The notes: generated by a model from the sequence alone, not told the origin. Shown: positions 53,664 to 62,094, numbered from the stretch's first letter. The stretch: DNA of 64,000 nucleotides from Thermoproteota archaeon (GCA_030550585.1 JAUQPB010000002.1:144001-208000); one strand, 5' to 3'. Translations and numbers: made by a program.

Positions 53664-54701
53664 CTATGAATGTATTTCAGAGTTTAGAACCTTCACAAGA
53701 GCATTAACAACATCAACTGTTTTGTAGGTTCCCCCTAGATCTGGTGTCAAAATTTTTAGATCTTCCACCACGGTATGTATAGCCTTATCCAAGTTTTTTG
53801 CCTTTACATGGAGATCAGCATCATCGAATTTTTCATATAGGTAGTAGAGCATCAACTTAGCAGCCTCTATCTCTCCAATAGGGTTGGCTATACCCTTTCC
53901 AGCTATATCGGGGGCTGTCCCATGAACAGGCTCAAAAACAGCTATGTCACTGCCTATTTGTGCAGAGCCGCATAGTCCAAGGCTACCAACCATAGCTGCG
54001 GCAAGATCAGATAGGATATCTCCATATAGATTTGGTGTAACCATAACCCCTAATCGTTCGGGGTTTCTAACAATTGTGTAAGCAGCTGTATCAACAATAA
54101 TCTCTTCTGCAGTTATATCAGGATATCTCTTAGCTACTTCAAAGAAAACATCTCTGAAGAGTCCATCGGATATCTTCAAAACATTGGCTTTGTGAACAAC
54201 TGTGACTTTTTTAAACCCGTTTTTCTTAGCATAGCTAAATGCATATTCTGCTATCCTTTTAGCACCTTCATAGGTAATGATCCTAAGAGATATGGCCGTT
54301 CCTTTAAATAGCCCCTCGATACCTACATAGACATCCTCGCTATTCTCTCTAACTATAACAAAGTTGAAATCCTTTAGTGAAAAGCCCTTGAAGCTCTTAA
54401 AAGGTCTCACATTGGCATACAAGTCAAGTTCTTTTCTAATCAAAATATTGATGCTTTTGAACTCTTTTTCATGTGGGGGTGTATAGAGAGGACCCTTCAA
54501 GATGGCATCCATCTTCTTGGCAACGTCAAAAAAGCCCTCCTCTAGTGGCTTTCCAAAACGCTTGTAGTATTCGTATCCAGCCCTCAGCTCAACAAATTCA
54601 GCATCTATTCCAAGGGCATTCAACACATGAAGTGCGGCATCAACTATTTCTGGCCCTATACCATCTCCCTTCAAAACCCCTATCTTGTACCTCTTGACCA
54701 T
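53664..54701 (-). CDS. Isocitrate/isopropylmalate dehydrogenase family, probably NAD-isocitrate dehydrogenase
   Basis: A 345-residue beta-decarboxylating dehydrogenase. The substrate loop has S83-I-N85-x3-R89, with LDLYANVRP following, matching the Ser/Asn/Arg pattern of isocitrate dehydrogenases rather than the Glu/Leu of isopropylmalate dehydrogenases. RENSEDVYVGIEG (about 118-130) is nearly the E. coli isocitrate dehydrogenase motif. HKANVLK holds the catalytic lysine and GTAPDIAGKG (261-270) has Asp-Ile where NADP enzymes have Lys-Tyr, predicting NAD. It would usually be labelled leuB. Overlaps the small-subunit gene by 22 nt. Homoisocitrate dehydrogenase remains possible. Confidence 0.8.
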   Translation of the reverse strand: MVKRYKIGVLKGDGIGPEIVDAALHVLNALGIDAEFVELRAGYEYYKRFGKPLEEGFFDVAKKMDAILKGPLYTPPHEKEFKSINILIRKELDLYANVRPFKSFKGFSLKDFNFVIVRENSEDVYVGIEGLFKGTAISLRIITYEGAKRIAEYAFSYAKKNGFKKVTVVHKANVLKISDGLFRDVFFEVAKRYPDITAEEIIVDTAAYTIVRNPERLGVMVTPNLYGDILSDLAAAMVGSLGLCGSAQIGSDIAVFEPVHGTAPDIAGKGIANPIGEIEAAKLMLYYLYEKFDDADLHVKAKNLDKAIHTVVEDLKILTPDLGGTYKTVDVVNALVKVLNSEIHS

Positions 54702-55201
54702 GGAAGTCCACCATATCTCTTGATGTATTCTACAACTCCGCCAACCTCAAGAATGTCAAGAATTTCCTTGGGGAAGGGGGTAAACCTCTCTTCAACGCCT
54801 TTTGTAATGTTCCTTACAATGCCATTTGATATATCAACCTCTACCACATCTCCTGTCTCGCTAACATCTGGAATGATCTTTGCAACAATCACCGGCAGCC
54901 CAATGTTTATAGCATTTCTGTAGAATATGTGTGCAAAGCTCTTAGCAACAATAGCTCCAACTCCAACAAGCTTTAGTAGTCTTGGTGCCTGCTCTCTGCT
55001 AGAGCCTTTCCCAAAGTTTCTGCCACCAACAATTATATCGCCTTTTGAAACCAGTTTGTAGAATCCAGGTATAACGTCTTCAAGTACGTGAACAGCCATC
55101 TTATTCATATCATTTATGGCTTCGAATTTGTATTTCCCAGATATTATATGGTCTGTACTTATATTGTCTCCAAGCTTCCAACACTTTCCACGGACAATCA
55201 C
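54680..55201 (-). CDS. Aconitase/isopropylmalate dehydratase family small subunit (aconitase-like)
   Basis: A 173-residue swivel subunit. GDNISTDHIISGKYKF (about 12-27) has TDHI as in aconitases (TTDHISPAG) instead of the TDVIIP of the other small subunit at 16958-17446. FGKGSSREQAPRLLK (near 63) and FYRNAINIGLPVIV follow. The specificity loop GKYKF differs from the YLRT and YLxM types. The start is GTG at 55201, with GGGGTGGG upstream. In this operon it is probably one half of a split aconitase, but homoaconitase or isopropylmalate dehydratase cannot be excluded. Confidence 0.78.
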   Translation of the reverse strand: MIVRGKCWKLGDNISTDHIISGKYKFEAINDMNKMAVHVLEDVIPGFYKLVSKGDIIVGGRNFGKGSSREQAPRLLKLVGVGAIVAKSFAHIFYRNAINIGLPVIVAKIIPDVSETGDVVEVDISNGIVRNITKGVEERFTPFPKEILDILEVGGVVEYIKRYGGLPWSRGTR

Positions 55202-55213
55202 ATTGGCCCACCC

Positions 55214-56467
55214 CTAAGAAAGGTATTTCCTGGGATCAGCTATTCTACCCTCTATAGCTGTAGCAGCGGCTACAGCGGGTGATGAGAGGTACACCTTGCT
55301 ATCTCTATGTCCCATTCTACCCGGGAAGTTTCTGTTTGTTGTTGCCACAGCAACTTCGCCAGCTGCTAAAAGACCCATGTGAGCACCTACACATGGTCCG
55401 CATGTTGGGGGTGCTATAGTGCATCCTGCACTAGCAAGAATGTCTATATAGCCTCTTTTCAGAGCCTCCATATAGACCTTTCTAGAAGCTGGTGATACTA
55501 TACATCTTACACCATCTTTTACCTTTCTCCCATGCAATATTCGTGCAGCTATCTCTATGTCCTCCAACCTGCCATTTGTACACGAGCCTATGAAAACCTG
55601 GTCAACCTCTACGTTGCTTACTTCACCAACACCTTTAACATTGTCAACATCCGGTGGAGCAGCTACCACAGGCTCCAATTTAGAGACTTCAACAATAAGC
55701 TCATCAACATAGCCATCTTCTTTTTCCCAATCAACATCCCTGTAAATGGTATACCCTCTTTCATTTAGCCACTTCCTAGCAACCTCATCAACTGGCATAA
55801 TAGCCGACTCAGCGCTCATCTCTGTGCACATATTTGTTAACGTCATTCTAGAGTCTACACTTAGATACTTCAGTGTATCACCTCTAAACTCAACAGCTCT
55901 ACCAAGCATACCGTCAGTACCTATACTACCTATTATGTGAAGCGCTATATCCTTGCTCATAACACCTTTCGGCATGGCCCCTGTTAAAACAACCTTAGCC
56001 GTTTCAGGCACCTTAAGCCACAGCATCCCAAACATCATGGCAATAGCTGCATCGGTACTTCCAACCCCAGTAGCATAAACACCTATGGCACCAATTGTTG
56101 GTGTATGGCTATCTGCTCCAACAACAACCATGCCAGGTCTAACAAGACCATCTTCAACAACAACTTGGTGGCTAATACCATAACCCACATCGAATAGTTT
56201 CACCCCATACTCTTTTGCAAATCTCCTCATCTCCTTGTGAACAGTAGCAGCAGCAACGTGTGGGGCTGGAGAAGAGTGGTCAATGAAGAAAAATGCTCTT
56301 TCTACAGCAACTCTTCTCTTTAATTCGAGCTCTTTTTCAACAACATCTATTACAAGCGGCGCTGTGCCATCTTGTGCATAGACAGCATCAATGTTTATGA
56401 CAACTATCTCTCCTGGTGAGACATTTCTGCCAATTGCTTTAGACACTATCCTATCTATCAAGCCCAT
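55214..56467 (-). CDS. Aconitase/isopropylmalate dehydratase family large subunit
   Basis: A 417-residue catalytic subunit with [4Fe-4S] ligands in GSCTNGR (near 297) and PTCGPCVGAHMG (near 353), ADSHTPTIGAIG (near 120) and TNRNFPGRMG (near 380). It is a paralogue of 17443-18693; unlike that copy its substrate-contacting N-terminal segment reads IDHSSPAPHVAAA. It lies 12 nt before its small subunit and 36 nt behind the citrate-synthase-like gene. Likely citrate to isocitrate given its neighbours; homocitrate or isopropylmalate are alternatives. Confidence 0.82.
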   Translation of the reverse strand: MGLIDRIVSKAIGRNVSPGEIVVINIDAVYAQDGTAPLVIDVVEKELELKRRVAVERAFFFIDHSSPAPHVAAATVHKEMRRFAKEYGVKLFDVGYGISHQVVVEDGLVRPGMVVVGADSHTPTIGAIGVYATGVGSTDAAIAMMFGMLWLKVPETAKVVLTGAMPKGVMSKDIALHIIGSIGTDGMLGRAVEFRGDTLKYLSVDSRMTLTNMCTEMSAESAIMPVDEVARKWLNERGYTIYRDVDWEKEDGYVDELIVEVSKLEPVVAAPPDVDNVKGVGEVSNVEVDQVFIGSCTNGRLEDIEIAARILHGRKVKDGVRCIVSPASRKVYMEALKRGYIDILASAGCTIAPPTCGPCVGAHMGLLAAGEVAVATTNRNFPGRMGHRDSKVYLSSPAVAAATAIEGRIADPRKYLS

Positions 56468-56503
56468 TCAAGGAACACCTCAAGAAAATCTTCGAATATC
56501 TTT

Positions 56504-57808
56504 TTACCGTGTCTTTCTCTCGACCTCGGGAAAATGCTTCTTCACGATTTCAAGCATTTCACTATCTGATAGTGGCTCAACTCTATTGGTCTTATTGAAC
56601 AGCTCTACAATTTCGTTGTATATTGCAACAACTCTTGGATCATCTTTTGATATATGGTTATATCCGAGATAGTTCTTAAGCCAGATTACAATAGCCGACC
56701 TTCCAGAGTATGGGGTTATTGCGACAGAGTATGGTAGTCCCAGAACCTTCACTGGATCGAATGGCAAGTAAACCTCCGGGTTCTTTAAAAGACCGTCGGC
56801 ATGTATACCTGCTTTTGTTCTAAAAGCATTCTTACCTACAATTGGGTAGTGCTCAATTATTTTGAGCCCCATCCTCTCAAAGAGTTCAGGTAGCTTTGAC
56901 AAAGCCTTCAAATTTATTCTGTTGTCACCTCTTATAGAAGCATAGTGAATAGCCATAATTTCTAGTGGGCAGTTACCAGCTCTTTCACCAATGCCTAGAA
57001 GAGTGCAGTTGCCAGCTGCTGCACCATAAATCCATGCCGCAAGTTGATTAGCTACAACAAGCCCAAAGTCGTTATGACCATGAAACTCTATATACTCTTG
57101 TGGAATGCCAGTAGCCCTCCTAATTGCTTGTATAATTGCTGGTATCCCTCTTGGAAGTGGCACCTCTGGAAATGGTAGTCCGAGCCCCAGAGTATCTGGG
57201 AGCTTTATCTTTACAGGTGTTCTGTACTTCTCGCTTAACTCGAGAAGCCTCTTTACAAAGGGTATCACAGCTCCGAAAATATCAGCTCTTGTAATATCCT
57301 CTAGAGACGCTCTAATTGTTATCCCATGACTAAGAGCCTTCTCAGCAACCTCTAAATATTTTCTAAAAGCCTCTTCCCTTGTCGCATTAAACTTGTACTT
57401 TATGTGATAATCAGATATAGACATGAGCATAACAGTCTCGTCAAGCTTCGCATCTATAACAAGCTGGAGATCTGTATGGGTGGCTCTTATCCAGCCTATT
57501 ACCTTTGGATACCTATATCCATATGATAAAAGCCTCTTCACAGCTTCCCTATCCTTTTCTGTATACAGAAATACTTCTGTGCTTTCAATACCTCCCCTAC
57601 CACCAATATCGGCTAAAAGCTCGTAGATCTCCTCACATTCTTCAACAGTGAAAACCCTCCAACCCTGTTGGCCATCTCTAAGTGTAGTATCGGTAAGAAA
57701 AATCTTACTTAGATTTTCCCTAAGCTCAGCATCTGTAACAACAAGTCTTGGCACACTATCAAATGGATAGAGATCTCTGAAAAACTTCATATCCCCATCT
57801 AATCCCAT
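56504..57808 (-). CDS. DRE-TIM metallolyase, Re-citrate synthase-like (isopropylmalate/homocitrate synthase superfamily)
   Basis: A 434-residue TIM-barrel enzyme. TDTTLRDGQQGWR (near 38) carries the DRE-type Arg-Asp-Gly metal/substrate motif, and EFHGHNDFGLVVANQ (near 233) the metal histidines. STEVFLYTEKDREAV, MSISDYHIKYKF, HADGLLKN and the C-terminal SGRSAIVIWLKNYLG recall Re-citrate synthase of Clostridium kluyveri and relatives rather than standard LeuA, which reads DTTLRDGEQ. It heads the operon with the aconitase-like and isocitrate dehydrogenase-like genes. Homocitrate or isopropylmalate synthase activity is the alternative. GGTGATG precedes the ATG. Confidence 0.72.
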   Translation of the reverse strand: MGLDGDMKFFRDLYPFDSVPRLVVTDAELRENLSKIFLTDTTLRDGQQGWRVFTVEECEEIYELLADIGGRGGIESTEVFLYTEKDREAVKRLLSYGYRYPKVIGWIRATHTDLQLVIDAKLDETVMLMSISDYHIKYKFNATREEAFRKYLEVAEKALSHGITIRASLEDITRADIFGAVIPFVKRLLELSEKYRTPVKIKLPDTLGLGLPFPEVPLPRGIPAIIQAIRRATGIPQEYIEFHGHNDFGLVVANQLAAWIYGAAAGNCTLLGIGERAGNCPLEIMAIHYASIRGDNRINLKALSKLPELFERMGLKIIEHYPIVGKNAFRTKAGIHADGLLKNPEVYLPFDPVKVLGLPYSVAITPYSGRSAIVIWLKNYLGYNHISKDDPRVVAIYNEIVELFNKTNRVEPLSDSEMLEIVKKHFPEVERKTR

Positions 57809-58032: not shown

Positions 58033-58045
58033 AAATTTATATACC
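58033..58045 (+). promoter_or_regulatory. TATA box of serA
   Basis: AAATTTATATACC, predicted start near 58066, just before a GGTG site at 58073-58076. Confidence 0.45.
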
Positions 58046-58077
58046 GATAGGCTTGAACAGAGATTAAGATTTGGTGA

Positions 58078-59013
58078 ACACCTTTTGTCGACAAATACAA
58101 AGTTCTAATAGTTGATAGGGTATCAGAGAAGTTCTTGGATAGCTTGAAGAAGCACGGATTCGAGGTTCATTATAAACCAGGGCTATCAAGGGAAGAGTTG
58201 CTTAGCATTGTAGAGAATTATAATATCCTTGTTTTCAGGGGTAGGCTGAAAATAGATAGGGGGGTTATTGATAGAGGTGCCAATTTGAAGGTCTTAGCTA
58301 GGTATGGTATAGGATTAGATAATGTAGATGTAGAACATGCCGTGAAAAGAGGTATAGCTGTTGTGAATGCCCCCTCAGCCTCAGCTATAAGTGTAGCTGA
58401 ACTGACGATAGCATTGATGTTGACAGTCTATAGAAGACTCTACGACTTTATACACAGTGTTAAATGTGGTGAGTGGTCCAAGGGTAAGCATCTTGGTAGG
58501 GAACTGCATGGTAAAAAACTTGGTGTGATAGGCTTTGGCAGAATTGGTAGCAGGGTTGCTTACTACGCTAAAGCATTTGGCATGGATATAATGGTCTATG
58601 ATATTAGAGATGTTTCTGAAGAGGTCTCAAAACTTGGTGGTGTACAAGTGGATTTGGAGAGGCTTTTAAGCGGAGCAGACGTTGTGACACTTCATGTCCC
58701 TCTAACTCCTTTGACATGGCATATGATAAACGATAAGACGCTGTCTATGATGAGAGACGGCACGGTGTTGGTTAATACCAGTAGGGGCGAGGTCATAGAT
58801 ACAGATGCTTTGCTGAAGCATGTTGATAGACTCGGTGGTGTGGCTCTGGACGTTCTTGAGCAGGAGCCTCCAAAAGATGAGAAGATCTGGAGACTGGTTA
58901 AACATCCAAATGTTGTTGTAACGCCTCATATAGGGGCTGAAACAGTCGAGGCGATGGATAGGATAGCAGATGAGCTTGTGAAAAACATTTTGGAGGCGGT
59001 GAACTGGCTTTGA
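58078..59013 (+). CDS. serA: D-3-phosphoglycerate dehydrogenase; start codon unclear
   Basis: First step of serine synthesis, NAD-dependent. The Rossmann motif GFGRIGSRVAYYAK, the catalytic arginine in NTSRGEVIDTDAL, glutamate in DVLEQEPP and histidine in TPHIGAET are all present; no C-terminal ACT domain. The first standard start in frame is TTG at 58135, but the frame is open from 58078 and encodes KYKVLIVDRVSEKFL, the normal first strand and helix. No ATG/GTG/TTG precedes it in frame. A well-placed TTG at 58085 (8 nt after GGTG) is out of frame by one base. Overlaps the next gene by 4 nt. Confidence 0.9.
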   Translation, partial: TPFVDKYKVLIVDRVSEKFLDSLKKHGFEVHYKPGLSREELLSIVENYNILVFRGRLKIDRGVIDRGANLKVLARYGIGLDNVDVEHAVKRGIAVVNAPSASAISVAELTIALMLTVYRRLYDFIHSVKCGEWSKGKHLGRELHGKKLGVIGFGRIGSRVAYYAKAFGMDIMVYDIRDVSEEVSKLGGVQVDLERLLSGADVVTLHVPLTPLTWHMINDKTLSMMRDGTVLVNTSRGEVIDTDALLKHVDRLGGVALDVLEQEPPKDEKIWRLVKHPNVVVTPHIGAETVEAMDRIADELVKNILEAVNWL

Positions 59014-60032
59014 AATATCTAACACCAGGACCTGTTCAAATACCTAAGCAGGTAGTTGATGCCATTGCAAGACAGCCGCAGTTCCACAGAACAGAAGAGT
59101 TTAGGGCGGTGTTCAAGAGGGTTATCGAAAAGCTTTCAGCAGTGTACAAAACAATTCCTGTGATAATACCTGGAACAGGCACGCTTGCTGTTGATGTGAT
59201 GGTCTATAACTATGTTAATCCAGGAGAGAAGGTAGTTGCAATAACAAATGGAGAGTTTGGGGATAGGCTTATAGAGTCTATAGAGTCTAGGGGTGGGGTT
59301 GTACACAAAATAGAGTGGAGGTATGGAGATGCACCTCCACCAGACATAGTCGAAGACACTGTTAGAAAAGTTGGTGATGTAAAGGCGATTGCAGTTGTTC
59401 ACAACGAGACTAGCACGGGAACCACAAATAGGTTTATCGAGAAATACCAGGATGTTGCAAGCTCATATGGCGCAGTACTTCTCGTTGATAGTGTTTCCCT
59501 CTACCCGGCAGAGGTTTTCAAGAAAGAGATAGACGTTATCGCAACAGCATCTCAAAAAGCATTCATATCACCTCCTGGAGCAGCCATATTATATATAGCT
59601 AAGGAACCTAGGGCAAAGGTTTCTGTACCGCCGTCAATGAACTTAGAGAAGTTTCTTCAAAGCCTTAAGAAGTGGGAGACGCCATATACACCACCAATAA
59701 ACGTTATATATGGTCTCGATGCAGCGCTCGACTATATTCTTGGTATGGGTGTTGACAAGTACCATGAGATGCATAGAGAAAGAGCTGAATATCTATACAA
59801 CAACATTAAATTAACACCAATTGCAAAGCAGGAATTGAGAAGCTATACAGTAACAGCCTTCTATACCAACAGAGCTAAAGACATTATAACAGAGCTGAAG
59901 AAACACGGATATGTTATAGCAGGTGGAATGGGCAAGCTAAAGGACAGCACCATCAGAATAGGTGTAATGGGGGACATAACAATAGAGGATCTTAGAAAGG
60001 TCGTTGAGATAGTGAATAGATATGTGGATTGA
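59010..60032 (+). CDS. Class V aminotransferase, probable phosphoserine aminotransferase (SerC-like)
   Basis: A 340-residue PLP enzyme of the alanine-glyoxylate/serine-pyruvate/phosphoserine group. YLTPGPVQIPKQV at the N-terminus, the PLP-binding GTGTLAVDVMV (near 55), VLLVDSVSLYPAE (near 158) and the lysine in ATASQKAFISPPGAA (near 188) are typical. In archaea such proteins often replace SerC, and the 4-nt overlap with serA supports 3-phosphohydroxypyruvate as substrate. The TTG at 59010 overlaps the serA stop. It overlaps the DUF89 gene by 11 nt. Confidence 0.85.
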   Translation: MKYLTPGPVQIPKQVVDAIARQPQFHRTEEFRAVFKRVIEKLSAVYKTIPVIIPGTGTLAVDVMVYNYVNPGEKVVAITNGEFGDRLIESIESRGGVVHKIEWRYGDAPPPDIVEDTVRKVGDVKAIAVVHNETSTGTTNRFIEKYQDVASSYGAVLLVDSVSLYPAEVFKKEIDVIATASQKAFISPPGAAILYIAKEPRAKVSVPPSMNLEKFLQSLKKWETPYTPPINVIYGLDAALDYILGMGVDKYHEMHRERAEYLYNNIKLTPIAKQELRSYTVTAFYTNRAKDIITELKKHGYVIAGGMGKLKDSTIRIGVMGDITIEDLRKVVEIVNRYVD

Positions 60033-60834
60033 CGATAGCTACTGCAAACTCTGTCTAATCTACTCCAGATCCAAAGACCTTGTAGAGCTTGGCCATGGAG
60101 ACAAGCTACCAAAGCTTTTGAAGAGGCTTGCAAAAATAGTTGAGGAAGAGGATAGCAGGTCAGAGGCGTTTGCAAAATCATTTGAATATATCAAGAAATT
60201 GACGAGGTCTAAAGATCCTTATCAAGAGAGGAAGAAAATGCTAAAAGAAATTGGAAAGAGGATAGCAGAGAAGGTCGAAAAGTATCTGGAGAGTGTTGAC
60301 TGGGATATCAGAGAAGCTATTAGGATATCTGCAGCTGCAAACATTATAGATACTAGTGTTCTTGGGTATGAAAATACGAGAAGCTTGGATGAGGCCATAT
60401 GGGATAAGCCAGTAATAGAGGATGGTTTTGAGATTCCAAAGGATGAGGATATATATGTTGTTTTAGACAATGCGGGTGAGGCAGAGATAGACAAGGTTTT
60501 AGCGAAGGCGCTTACACAAAATGGTTATAGAACCTTCATAGTTGTTAGGAACAAGGCATACGAAATAGATGAGATAGAACACGACTTTGAAGAAAAAAGC
60601 TTTAACGTTATATCAACCCCTGGTAGCATATCTCCTGTGGCATACATAGACAGAGGCTTCATAATAGCTAAAGGGATTGCAAATGCCGAAGCCTACGCAG
60701 AATTTGGAAAAACTAGGTCTCTTCACCTTCTGAGAGCTAAATGCGATGTAATAGCGAAGAGGTTTGGTGTGCCAAAGAATTCGGTGCTTATAGTATCAGG
60801 GGATAGAATAAAGAGTATTTTAACAGGGAGGTAG
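60022..60834 (+). CDS. DUF89 metal-dependent phosphatase; candidate phosphoserine phosphatase
   Basis: A 270-residue archaeal DUF89 protein. The N-terminal CKLCLIYSRS, the helical domain, and the conserved VVLDNAGEAEIDKVLA (near 155) with the metal-binding Asp-Asn are family hallmarks; AKGIANAEAYAEFG near 213 corresponds to the later conserved segment. Characterised DUF89 proteins are metal-dependent phosphatases of sugar phosphates and damaged metabolites. Here the gene overlaps the SerC-like gene by 11 nt and no other phosphatase is in the operon, so hydrolysis of phosphoserine is a reasonable but unproven assignment. Confidence 0.78.
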   Translation: MWIDDSYCKLCLIYSRSKDLVELGHGDKLPKLLKRLAKIVEEEDSRSEAFAKSFEYIKKLTRSKDPYQERKKMLKEIGKRIAEKVEKYLESVDWDIREAIRISAAANIIDTSVLGYENTRSLDEAIWDKPVIEDGFEIPKDEDIYVVLDNAGEAEIDKVLAKALTQNGYRTFIVVRNKAYEIDEIEHDFEEKSFNVISTPGSISPVAYIDRGFIIAKGIANAEAYAEFGKTRSLHLLRAKCDVIAKRFGVPKNSVLIVSGDRIKSILTGR

Positions 60835-61028: not shown

Positions 61029-61059
61029 TGGACAACTATAGCTATGGCTGGTGTGTATA

Positions 61060-62094
61060 GTGGCTGTTTATAGAAGGCGTGTGCAGAGGATAGGCAAGTC
61101 AACATATATAGTGTCCTTGCCCAACTCGTGGGCCAAGGAAATTGGTCTAGAACCCAAAATGAATGTTATTATGGAGGTTCTACCCGATCTATCTCTAAGG
61201 ATATATGTTCCCTATAAACAGGAGAGAGGTAGCATATCAGAGCATACAGTCTATGTAGATCCTAACTACTCAGACGAAGATATTGTTAGGGAGATCATAG
61301 GCGGATATGTTGCTGGGGCTTCGACGGTTAAGCTTGTTTATAAGGGTGTTAAGAGGGAGTTTATTGAGAAAGCTGTTTCTGTTGCTAAAGAGAAGCTAAT
61401 GGGACTTGAGGTAATAGATGAGGATGCAACTAGTGTAACGCTTCAGATTGTTGTTGACCCAAATCTAAGTAACCTAAATAGTGTTACAAAGAGGATGACA
61501 AGGTTAGCTATAAGTATGCACGAAGATATAATATCATATTTGACTGGGACAACAGATAAAAGCATATTAGAAGCTGTTATAGCTCGCGATAATCTTGTTG
61601 ACAAATTATATCTACTCGCTTTGAGGCAGTTAATAGCTATTCTAAGTGACCCCTATGAAATGGGTAGAAAGGGGCTCAAATACTACGACGCTATATACAT
61701 GACAATGTTTCTAAAAAGTGTTGAGAGGGTAGGAGATCATGCAGTGAATATATCAAAATCATTGCAAGCATTAGAAACACCGCCAAAGTTCATATCAAAT
61801 CTATATGCAAATGCTATAGAGATATTCAAGGGTATATGCGAAGCATATTTGGTGCCTGACAAGAACATGGCTATAAACATAACGAAGAAAATAGAAGAGC
61901 TGAAGCAACTAGAAGAGGAGATTAGAAAAAGCTATAGAGAAGAGTTAGCAAAACAGACAGTAGTAACAAGAATATTGGATGCCATATCAAGGATAATAGC
62001 TAGAAGCGTAGACATAGCAGAAGAGGTTATAGACATATATGCTCTCAAGAAAATGGATAAGATACCGTCGAAAGCAGAGGAAAATGAAGAGTAA
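61060..62094 (+). CDS. PhoU-domain protein with N-terminal SpoVT/AbrB-like domain
   Basis: About 344 residues. The N-terminus (VQRIGKSTYIVSLPNSWAKEIGL) is an AbrB/SpoVT-type swapped-hairpin DNA-binding or dimerisation domain. Residues about 150-330 contain PhoU-like helices, with RVGDHAVNISKSL (near 230) and RSVDIAEEVIDIY near the end marking the metal-binding three-helix repeats. In archaea this fusion is regarded as a phosphate-uptake regulator. No pst transporter is adjacent. GTG at 61060 is preferred over GTG at 61051 because of the TATA spacing. Confidence 0.8.
   Translation: MAVYRRRVQRIGKSTYIVSLPNSWAKEIGLEPKMNVIMEVLPDLSLRIYVPYKQERGSISEHTVYVDPNYSDEDIVREIIGGYVAGASTVKLVYKGVKREFIEKAVSVAKEKLMGLEVIDEDATSVTLQIVVDPNLSNLNSVTKRMTRLAISMHEDIISYLTGTTDKSILEAVIARDNLVDKLYLLALRQLIAILSDPYEMGRKGLKYYDAIYMTMFLKSVERVGDHAVNISKSLQALETPPKFISNLYANAIEIFKGICEAYLVPDKNMAINITKKIEELKQLEEEIRKSYREELAKQTVVTRILDAISRIIARSVDIAEEVIDIYALKKMDKIPSKAEENEE

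Follow-up and report, generated by a model that had tools for sequence, protein, structure and literature searches.

A DUF89 protein encoded with SerA and an AGAT-like aminotransferase is a candidate phosphoserine phosphatase in Ignisphaera and other Thermoproteota, and its operon opens with a serA gene of unusual start

Which enzyme would release serine from O-phosphoserine in an archaeon without SerB, a step that is among the known gaps in some bacteria according to GapMind (PMC7311316)? The question is raised by the genome of an Ignisphaera sp. (1.76 Mb, 99.9% complete), and here by a stretch of 64,000 nucleotides of it (G000:C7:144001-208000, referred to as the window). An earlier note, made from that sequence alone, had drawn attention to a serA gene, an aminotransferase gene and a DUF89 gene that overlap one another, and had put forward the DUF89 protein as a candidate phosphoserine phosphatase. 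The same locus poses another question, namely how its first gene, which has no canonical start codon in frame before the conserved core, is expressed.

The features of the locus are listed in Table 1. Both gene overlaps described in the note were confirmed: the TGA stop of serA (59011-59013) and the TTG start of the aminotransferase gene (59010) give an overlap of 4 nt, and the TGA stop of the latter (60030-60032) and the ATG of the DUF89 gene (60022) give one of 11 nt. The Pfam scores of the three products were 190 bits (2-Hacid_dh_C), 70 bits (Aminotran_5) and 76.8 bits (ARMT1-like_dom, that is DUF89, with a cut-off of 25). The best solved relatives of SerA are the D-3-phosphoglycerate dehydrogenases (PGDHs) 1wwk and 2ekl. 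Against TIGR01327 it remained below the cut-off (317.8/454 bits), with profile positions 1-301 of 525 covered and the C-terminal portion of the profile absent. The second gene had been called SerC-like; an aminotransferase is indeed present, but its family is not that of SerC (serC_1, 34 bits vs a cut-off of 443.6), and it belongs instead to the AGAT-like class-V enzymes, its best solved relatives being archaeal and other AGAT-like proteins. This protein, AT5, is presumed from its family to convert 3-phosphohydroxypyruvate to phosphoserine. The operon is adjoined by a divergent leuA/leuC/leuD/leuB-like set (window 53664-57808), which neighbours it in most Ignisphaera genomes examined. A gene for a PhoU-domain protein with an AbrB/MazE-like N-terminus lies at window 61051-62094; in G067 and G047, the closest relatives, it likewise comes after the operon, and it is also nearby in L091 and L092.

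Table 1. Features of the serA-AT5-DUF89 locus, in window coordinates
Feature	Position	Strand	Basis or remark
TATA-box-like sequence TTTATATA	58036..58043	+	Sequence; putative operon promoter, with activity presumed
Conserved element GGTG AACACC TTT T GTC G	58073..58090	+	Matches to GGTG-(6-9 nt)-TTG-(GAT)-TC[GA]
Short ORF from GTG (VNTFCRQIQSSNS, then stop)	58074..58115	+	SerA frame is +1 of this ORF
Short ORF from TTG (MSTNTKF, then stop)	58085..58108	+	Ser is codon 2; SerA frame is -1 of this ORF
SerA-like D-3-phosphoglycerate dehydrogenase	58087..59013	+	308 codons, counted from the first conserved codon, GTC
Class-V (AGAT-like) aminotransferase AT5	59010..60032	+	Aminotran_5; best solved relative 2dr1
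DUF89 (ARMT1-like), serA-linked clade; candidate phosphoserine phosphatase	60022..60834	+	PF01937, AlphaFold, 2g8l fold match, residues, tree

The lack of a HAD-type SerB, claimed by the note for this stretch, was found to hold for the whole genome, in which nothing exceeded the NCBIfam cut-off of TIGR00338. Matches below that cut-off were three P-type ATPases (807-896 aa), a 254-aa HAD, a 244-aa HAD-IA protein and two very weak fragments. The gene of the 254-aa HAD adjoins that of the RuBisCO large subunit (RbcL), and its product scores over the archaeal phosphoglycolate phosphatase cut-off. With PF12710, one HAD was above the cut-off in the whole genome, the generic HAD-IA protein. For the metal-independent phosphatase, iPSP, a PF00300 search found no full-length iPSP in the genome, its sole histidine phosphatase being a SixA-like protein of 153 aa, which is too short to be one. 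A gene for SHMT is present, so serine could also derive from glycine.

The note had further proposed to look for the triad in relatives, and the three genes were found together in about 40 genomes, in two orders. The order serA-AT5-DUF89 (about 31 genomes) occurs in Ignisphaera, in G159 of a second family, in the Acidilobaceae (G131, G098), Caldisphaera (G058, G068, G114), G169 and the Fervidicoccaceae (G034, G050, G127, G190), and a phylum-wide search added all 10 of the 10 Thermoproteaceae genomes examined as well as G321. The order DUF89-serA-AT5 was found in 9 more (G157, G149, G094, G100, G180, G124, G171, G006, G162), and AT5-DUF89 alone in G147, G126 and G155. Within the class, 19 further genomes encode a DUF89 close to that of the window (43-87% identity); all 19 genomes with a close AT5 (at least 53% identity, the window's included) are among the 20 with a close DUF89. 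The triad stays together while the flanking genes change between families. With some 1,900 genes to a genome, the chance of a random neighbour is roughly 0.1%, a rough figure, as related genomes are not independent. Sulfolobaceae (L268, L269, L270) have serA-AT5 without this DUF89 and without a clear SerB, which suggests that a third solution exists; no phosphatase was seen next to serA-AT5 in these three neighbourhoods.

The operon DUF89 scores above the PF01937 gathering threshold. Its AlphaFold model (pLDDT 93.8, pTM 0.91) has the DUF89 fold, with 2g8l (PH1575) as the top match in the PDB (E 1.2e-12). A canonical archaeal DUF89 is encoded by a separate gene of the same genome, and in a tree of 69 proteins the canonical clade (23) and a deep sister clade (46) were split with 100/100 support. 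Not one of the 23 canonical proteins, which comprise this second DUF89 and those of other archaea and bacteria, is encoded beside serA (0/23), and the sister clade holds all 29 of the serA/AT5-linked DUF89s tested. Within it, a branch divides the proteins linked in the order serA-AT5-DUF89 from those linked in the order DUF89-serA-AT5. The clade also contains unlinked members, for instance from Pyrodictiaceae and Thermofilaceae-like genomes, and may therefore have more than one function. Four unlinked DUF89s of the same clade were noted in L112, L113, L114 and L115, those of L112-L114 in a fixed neighbourhood of unnamed genes.

The catalytic residues D149, N150, D183 and K217 are invariant in DUF89. 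In those DUF89 phosphatases that have been characterised, two conserved Asp residues are essential (PMC9352595). Residues shared with the canonical proteins are C8, C11, D149, N150, G152, E153, D157, D183, K217, G218, E223, K240 and C241, and those specific to the clade are R46, F50, Y180 and E181. The residue preceding D183 also differs between the canonical and the serA-linked clades. We propose that R46, Y180 and E181 may read the amino-acid end of phosphoserine.

An alternative reading follows from family precedent, as DUF89 proteins have been described as damage-control phosphatases (PMC8669784): the operon protein would clear side products or excess phospho-intermediates of SerA and AT5, and another enzyme would make serine. 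A possible such enzyme is a HAD-IB SerB-like protein of 210-240 aa, below the cut-off, which is present in most genomes of the class and is kept, unlinked, in most triad genomes outside Ignisphaera and in several within. The absence of SerB as a general rule among triad genomes was accordingly rejected. In the Ignisphaera relatives the HAD-IB gene sits away from the serine genes, by pyrF/pyrE-like genes (named from ORF reading). In G107 it is present although serA and AT5 were not detected, so it is not tied to the serine pathway. Moreover, the triad is kept where HAD-IB was not seen (the window genome, G067), where it gave just one match of 23 bits (G047), and where the SerB-like gene is broken by five in-frame stop codons (G071:C10:54422-54850). 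Provided that this route is their source of serine, these four genomes are natural cases in which DUF89 would have to be enough. The canonical protein of damage-control type is a different gene of the same genome, and the operon DUF89 lies far under the NCBIfam damage-control equivalog cut-off (NF040824, 64.1 bits vs 440). We therefore regard a damage-control role as improbable.

Still less probable is a non-phosphorylated route, in which DUF89 would dephosphorylate 3-phosphoglycerate, the SerA-like protein would be a glycerate dehydrogenase and AT5 a serine:glyoxylate/pyruvate aminotransferase. The SerA and AT5 families do contain glycerate dehydrogenases and AGAT/SPT enzymes, but SerA scores higher as PGDH than as glyoxylate reductase, both against solved structures (256 vs 196 bits) and against NCBIfam (318 vs 232 bits). 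It also retains the arginines of FRGR and LARYG, which align with those of VRS and (A/G)RAG in 1wwk, 2ekl and human PGDH and which we take to be PGDH-type substrate-site arginines. The unlinked HAD-IB proteins, SHMT, the serA-AT5 pair of Sulfolobaceae and the clade members away from serA all count against the DUF89 role, and so does the generic HAD-IA protein of the genome, which could have phosphoserine phosphatase activity. If it, or another promiscuous phosphatase, were the real enzyme, the operon might mainly supply phosphoserine for cysteine, of which it is a precursor in archaea (PMC5120207), and DUF89 might tune the pool. The 244-aa protein is, however, a generic PGMB-like hydrolase under every equivalog cut-off shown, and this arrangement, too, is considered highly unlikely.

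The reading offered by the note thus gains support from the missing SerB and iPSP, the conserved triad and the separate DUF89 clade, and we consider it very likely that the serA-linked DUF89 is a phosphoserine phosphatase that replaces SerB or iPSP. This candidate role is drawn from genomic context. With the same strong likelihood, the three overlapping genes constitute a complete phosphorylated serine pathway, which is their joint best explanation. By family, SerA would oxidise 3-phosphoglycerate to 3-phosphohydroxypyruvate, the AGAT-like AT5 would form O-phosphoserine from it, and DUF89, presumably as a metal-dependent phosphatase, would hydrolyse O-phosphoserine to serine. In open-licence papers, no link between DUF89 and phosphoserine was found. 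If the reading is true, it would assign a role to an entire clade of DUF89 phosphatases and would close the gap at the end of serine synthesis in several crenarchaeal families, among them the Thermoproteaceae, for which complete genomes exist. It would also mean that members of the DUF89 family can serve core biosynthesis, beyond damage control.

The start of serA is less ordinary than the placement of the three genes, which stands as the note gave it. Position 58078, with which the range given in the note begins, is only the point at which a TGA ends and the SerA frame becomes open; the first ATG, GTG or TTG in this frame is at 58135, already within the conserved N-terminal domain. Ten genomes lack an in-frame serA start before the conserved core (the window genome, G067, G047, G063, G097, G039, G121, G159, G034 and G190), and a possible one is present in four others (G071, G042, G127, G050). 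A sequencing or assembly error was rejected, as ten independent genomes are alike and the finished I. aggregans type-strain chromosome is one of them. A truncated SerA from TTG 58135 is unlikely, since the codons upstream of it are constrained in the SerA frame and code for the first strand of the conserved domain. Synonymous and non-synonymous differences were 70:53 in the SerA frame vs 38:122 and 20:148 in the other frames; the constraint begins right after GTC, and from this codon onward third codon positions vary like those of the rest of serA. This frame-specific constraint indicates that the SerA frame is translated across the stretch without a canonical start. Conserved loss of an in-frame start is combined here with coding constraint in the new frame, a pattern expected of a programmed ribosomal frameshift.

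Just upstream lies a short conserved element, which contains a GTG (58074-58076), a T-run (58083-58086) and a TTG (58085-58087) with the Ser codon TCG directly after it. The TATA-box-like sequence is 30 nt upstream of this GTG here and 23-30 nt in the relatives measured by eye. In Ignisphaera and G159 the element is an invariant GGTG-N6-NTTT-GTC, in which N6, like everything further upstream, is unconserved. The broader motif given in Table 1, the form shared once Pyrodictiaceae are included, matched 26 loci in five families, three of them loci that have lost serA. Elsewhere in the genomes it occurs at chance level (4 matches in its own genome vs 7 for the reversed control), and a general initiation signal was rejected on this ground. 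At all 26 loci a short ORF of 5-20 codons starts from the TTG; it begins MS.. or MDS.., its second or third codon being serine, and the gene downstream lies without exception in the -1 frame of this ORF. All 9 Ignisphaera genomes tested, as well as G159 and the Fervidicoccaceae, have a start codon followed by codons in its frame, NTT-TGT-C and an early stop. In Caldisphaera and Acidilobaceae the GTG is in frame with SerA; G131/G098 and Caldisphaera have GTG-N6-TTT-GTC and GTG-N6-ATT-GTC, one base shorter than the form of Ignisphaera.

The element can outlast serA. In G147 (L042) and G126 (L043) serA is gone and the element remains upstream of AT5, with a SerA-equivalent frame of 38 and 35 codons that ends at the AT5 start (TAATG in G147); the GTG-started frame stops about 80-90 nt before it. 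In G079 (L041), likewise without serA, the element and a 92-codon ORF in the SerA-equivalent frame stand before an orphan DUF89. At all three loci this ORF runs up to the next gene or stops just short of it. The serA loci of Pyrodictiaceae (L255, L257, L259, L252, L254, L258) share the conserved leader GAGGTGGTGCC[GC]TTGGATTCG and a short ORF MDS.., with SerA in the -1 frame of that ORF, and G046 and G183 are without an obvious SerA start. The serA of Thermoproteaceae has a plain ATG and the element is absent.

Some non-standard event at the serA start, either frameshifting or non-canonical initiation, is considered probable from these sequence patterns, and the first gene of the operon may thus be expressed by such an event at the 5' element, a proposal separate from that of the pathway. 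Three candidate mechanisms were considered. A start at GTG with a +1 slip at NTT-T, the Cys codon UGU being in the A site, is supported by the near-leaderless position and the in-frame relatives, and fits Ignisphaera, G159 and Fervidicoccaceae. It does not cover every case: Pyrodictiaceae do not fit it, and TTG-TC[GA] is also conserved at loci that require no shift. Its UGU is also partly implied by the conserved Val codon GTC; in Fervidicoccaceae GTC is kept and the residues after it are not. Alternatively, GGTG would be a Shine-Dalgarno sequence for a start at TTG, with a -1 slip at the Ser codon. This fits all 26 matched loci, but there is no clear slip heptamer, the slip pairing is poor, and the pattern is partly forced by the conservation of SerA codons. 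The remaining candidate is initiation at a non-canonical codon.

More tentatively, and with somewhat less than even confidence, SerA might be made only upon a frame change or abnormal start, the waiting codon (UGU for Cys or UCG for Ser) sensing end products of the pathway. If true, Archaea would have an amino-acid sensor based on recoding, acting on an operon with a DUF89 phosphoserine phosphatase as third enzyme. The serA 5' element, if it works as a recoding switch, would be one of few such examples in archaea. For archaeal recoding, a review from 2021 gives one -1 frameshift (fucA1), a single +1 candidate from a virus and a suspected case in magnesium chelatase (PMC8211752), and no link between archaeal serA and frameshifting was found in open-licence papers.

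Compared with known systems, the operon DUF89 has the same fold as PH1575 (2g8l; TM 0.77) and AF1104 (2ffj; TM 0.69-0.70) and shares with them a CxxC near the N-terminus, the DN-x-GE motif and the KG-x-x-N motif. It differs from both in its low identity (18-24%), its place in the sister clade, the Tyr-Glu before the catalytic Asp in place of Phe-Gln, and Arg46 and Phe50, which are specific to its clade. SerB (a HAD) and iPSP (a histidine phosphatase) have the reaction and pathway position proposed for DUF89, but their folds and families are unrelated to it, and neither is found over the cut-off in this genome. In the serA-AT-serK clusters of Desulfurococcales (PMC5120207), serA and an aminotransferase gene are likewise clustered with that of a phosphoserine/serine enzyme; SerK phosphorylates serine, whereas the operon described here has a phosphatase instead. 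For the start of serA, the nearest parallels are two programmed frameshifts, +1 in bacterial prfB and -1 in Saccharolobus fucA1 (the sole archaeal -1 example given in PMC8211752), in which the frame is likewise disrupted near the start and which, like serA, have a conserved short signal and in-frame orthologues in relatives. Unlike them, serA is a metabolic gene in which UGU (Cys) or UCG (Ser), not a stop, would come after the putative slip site.
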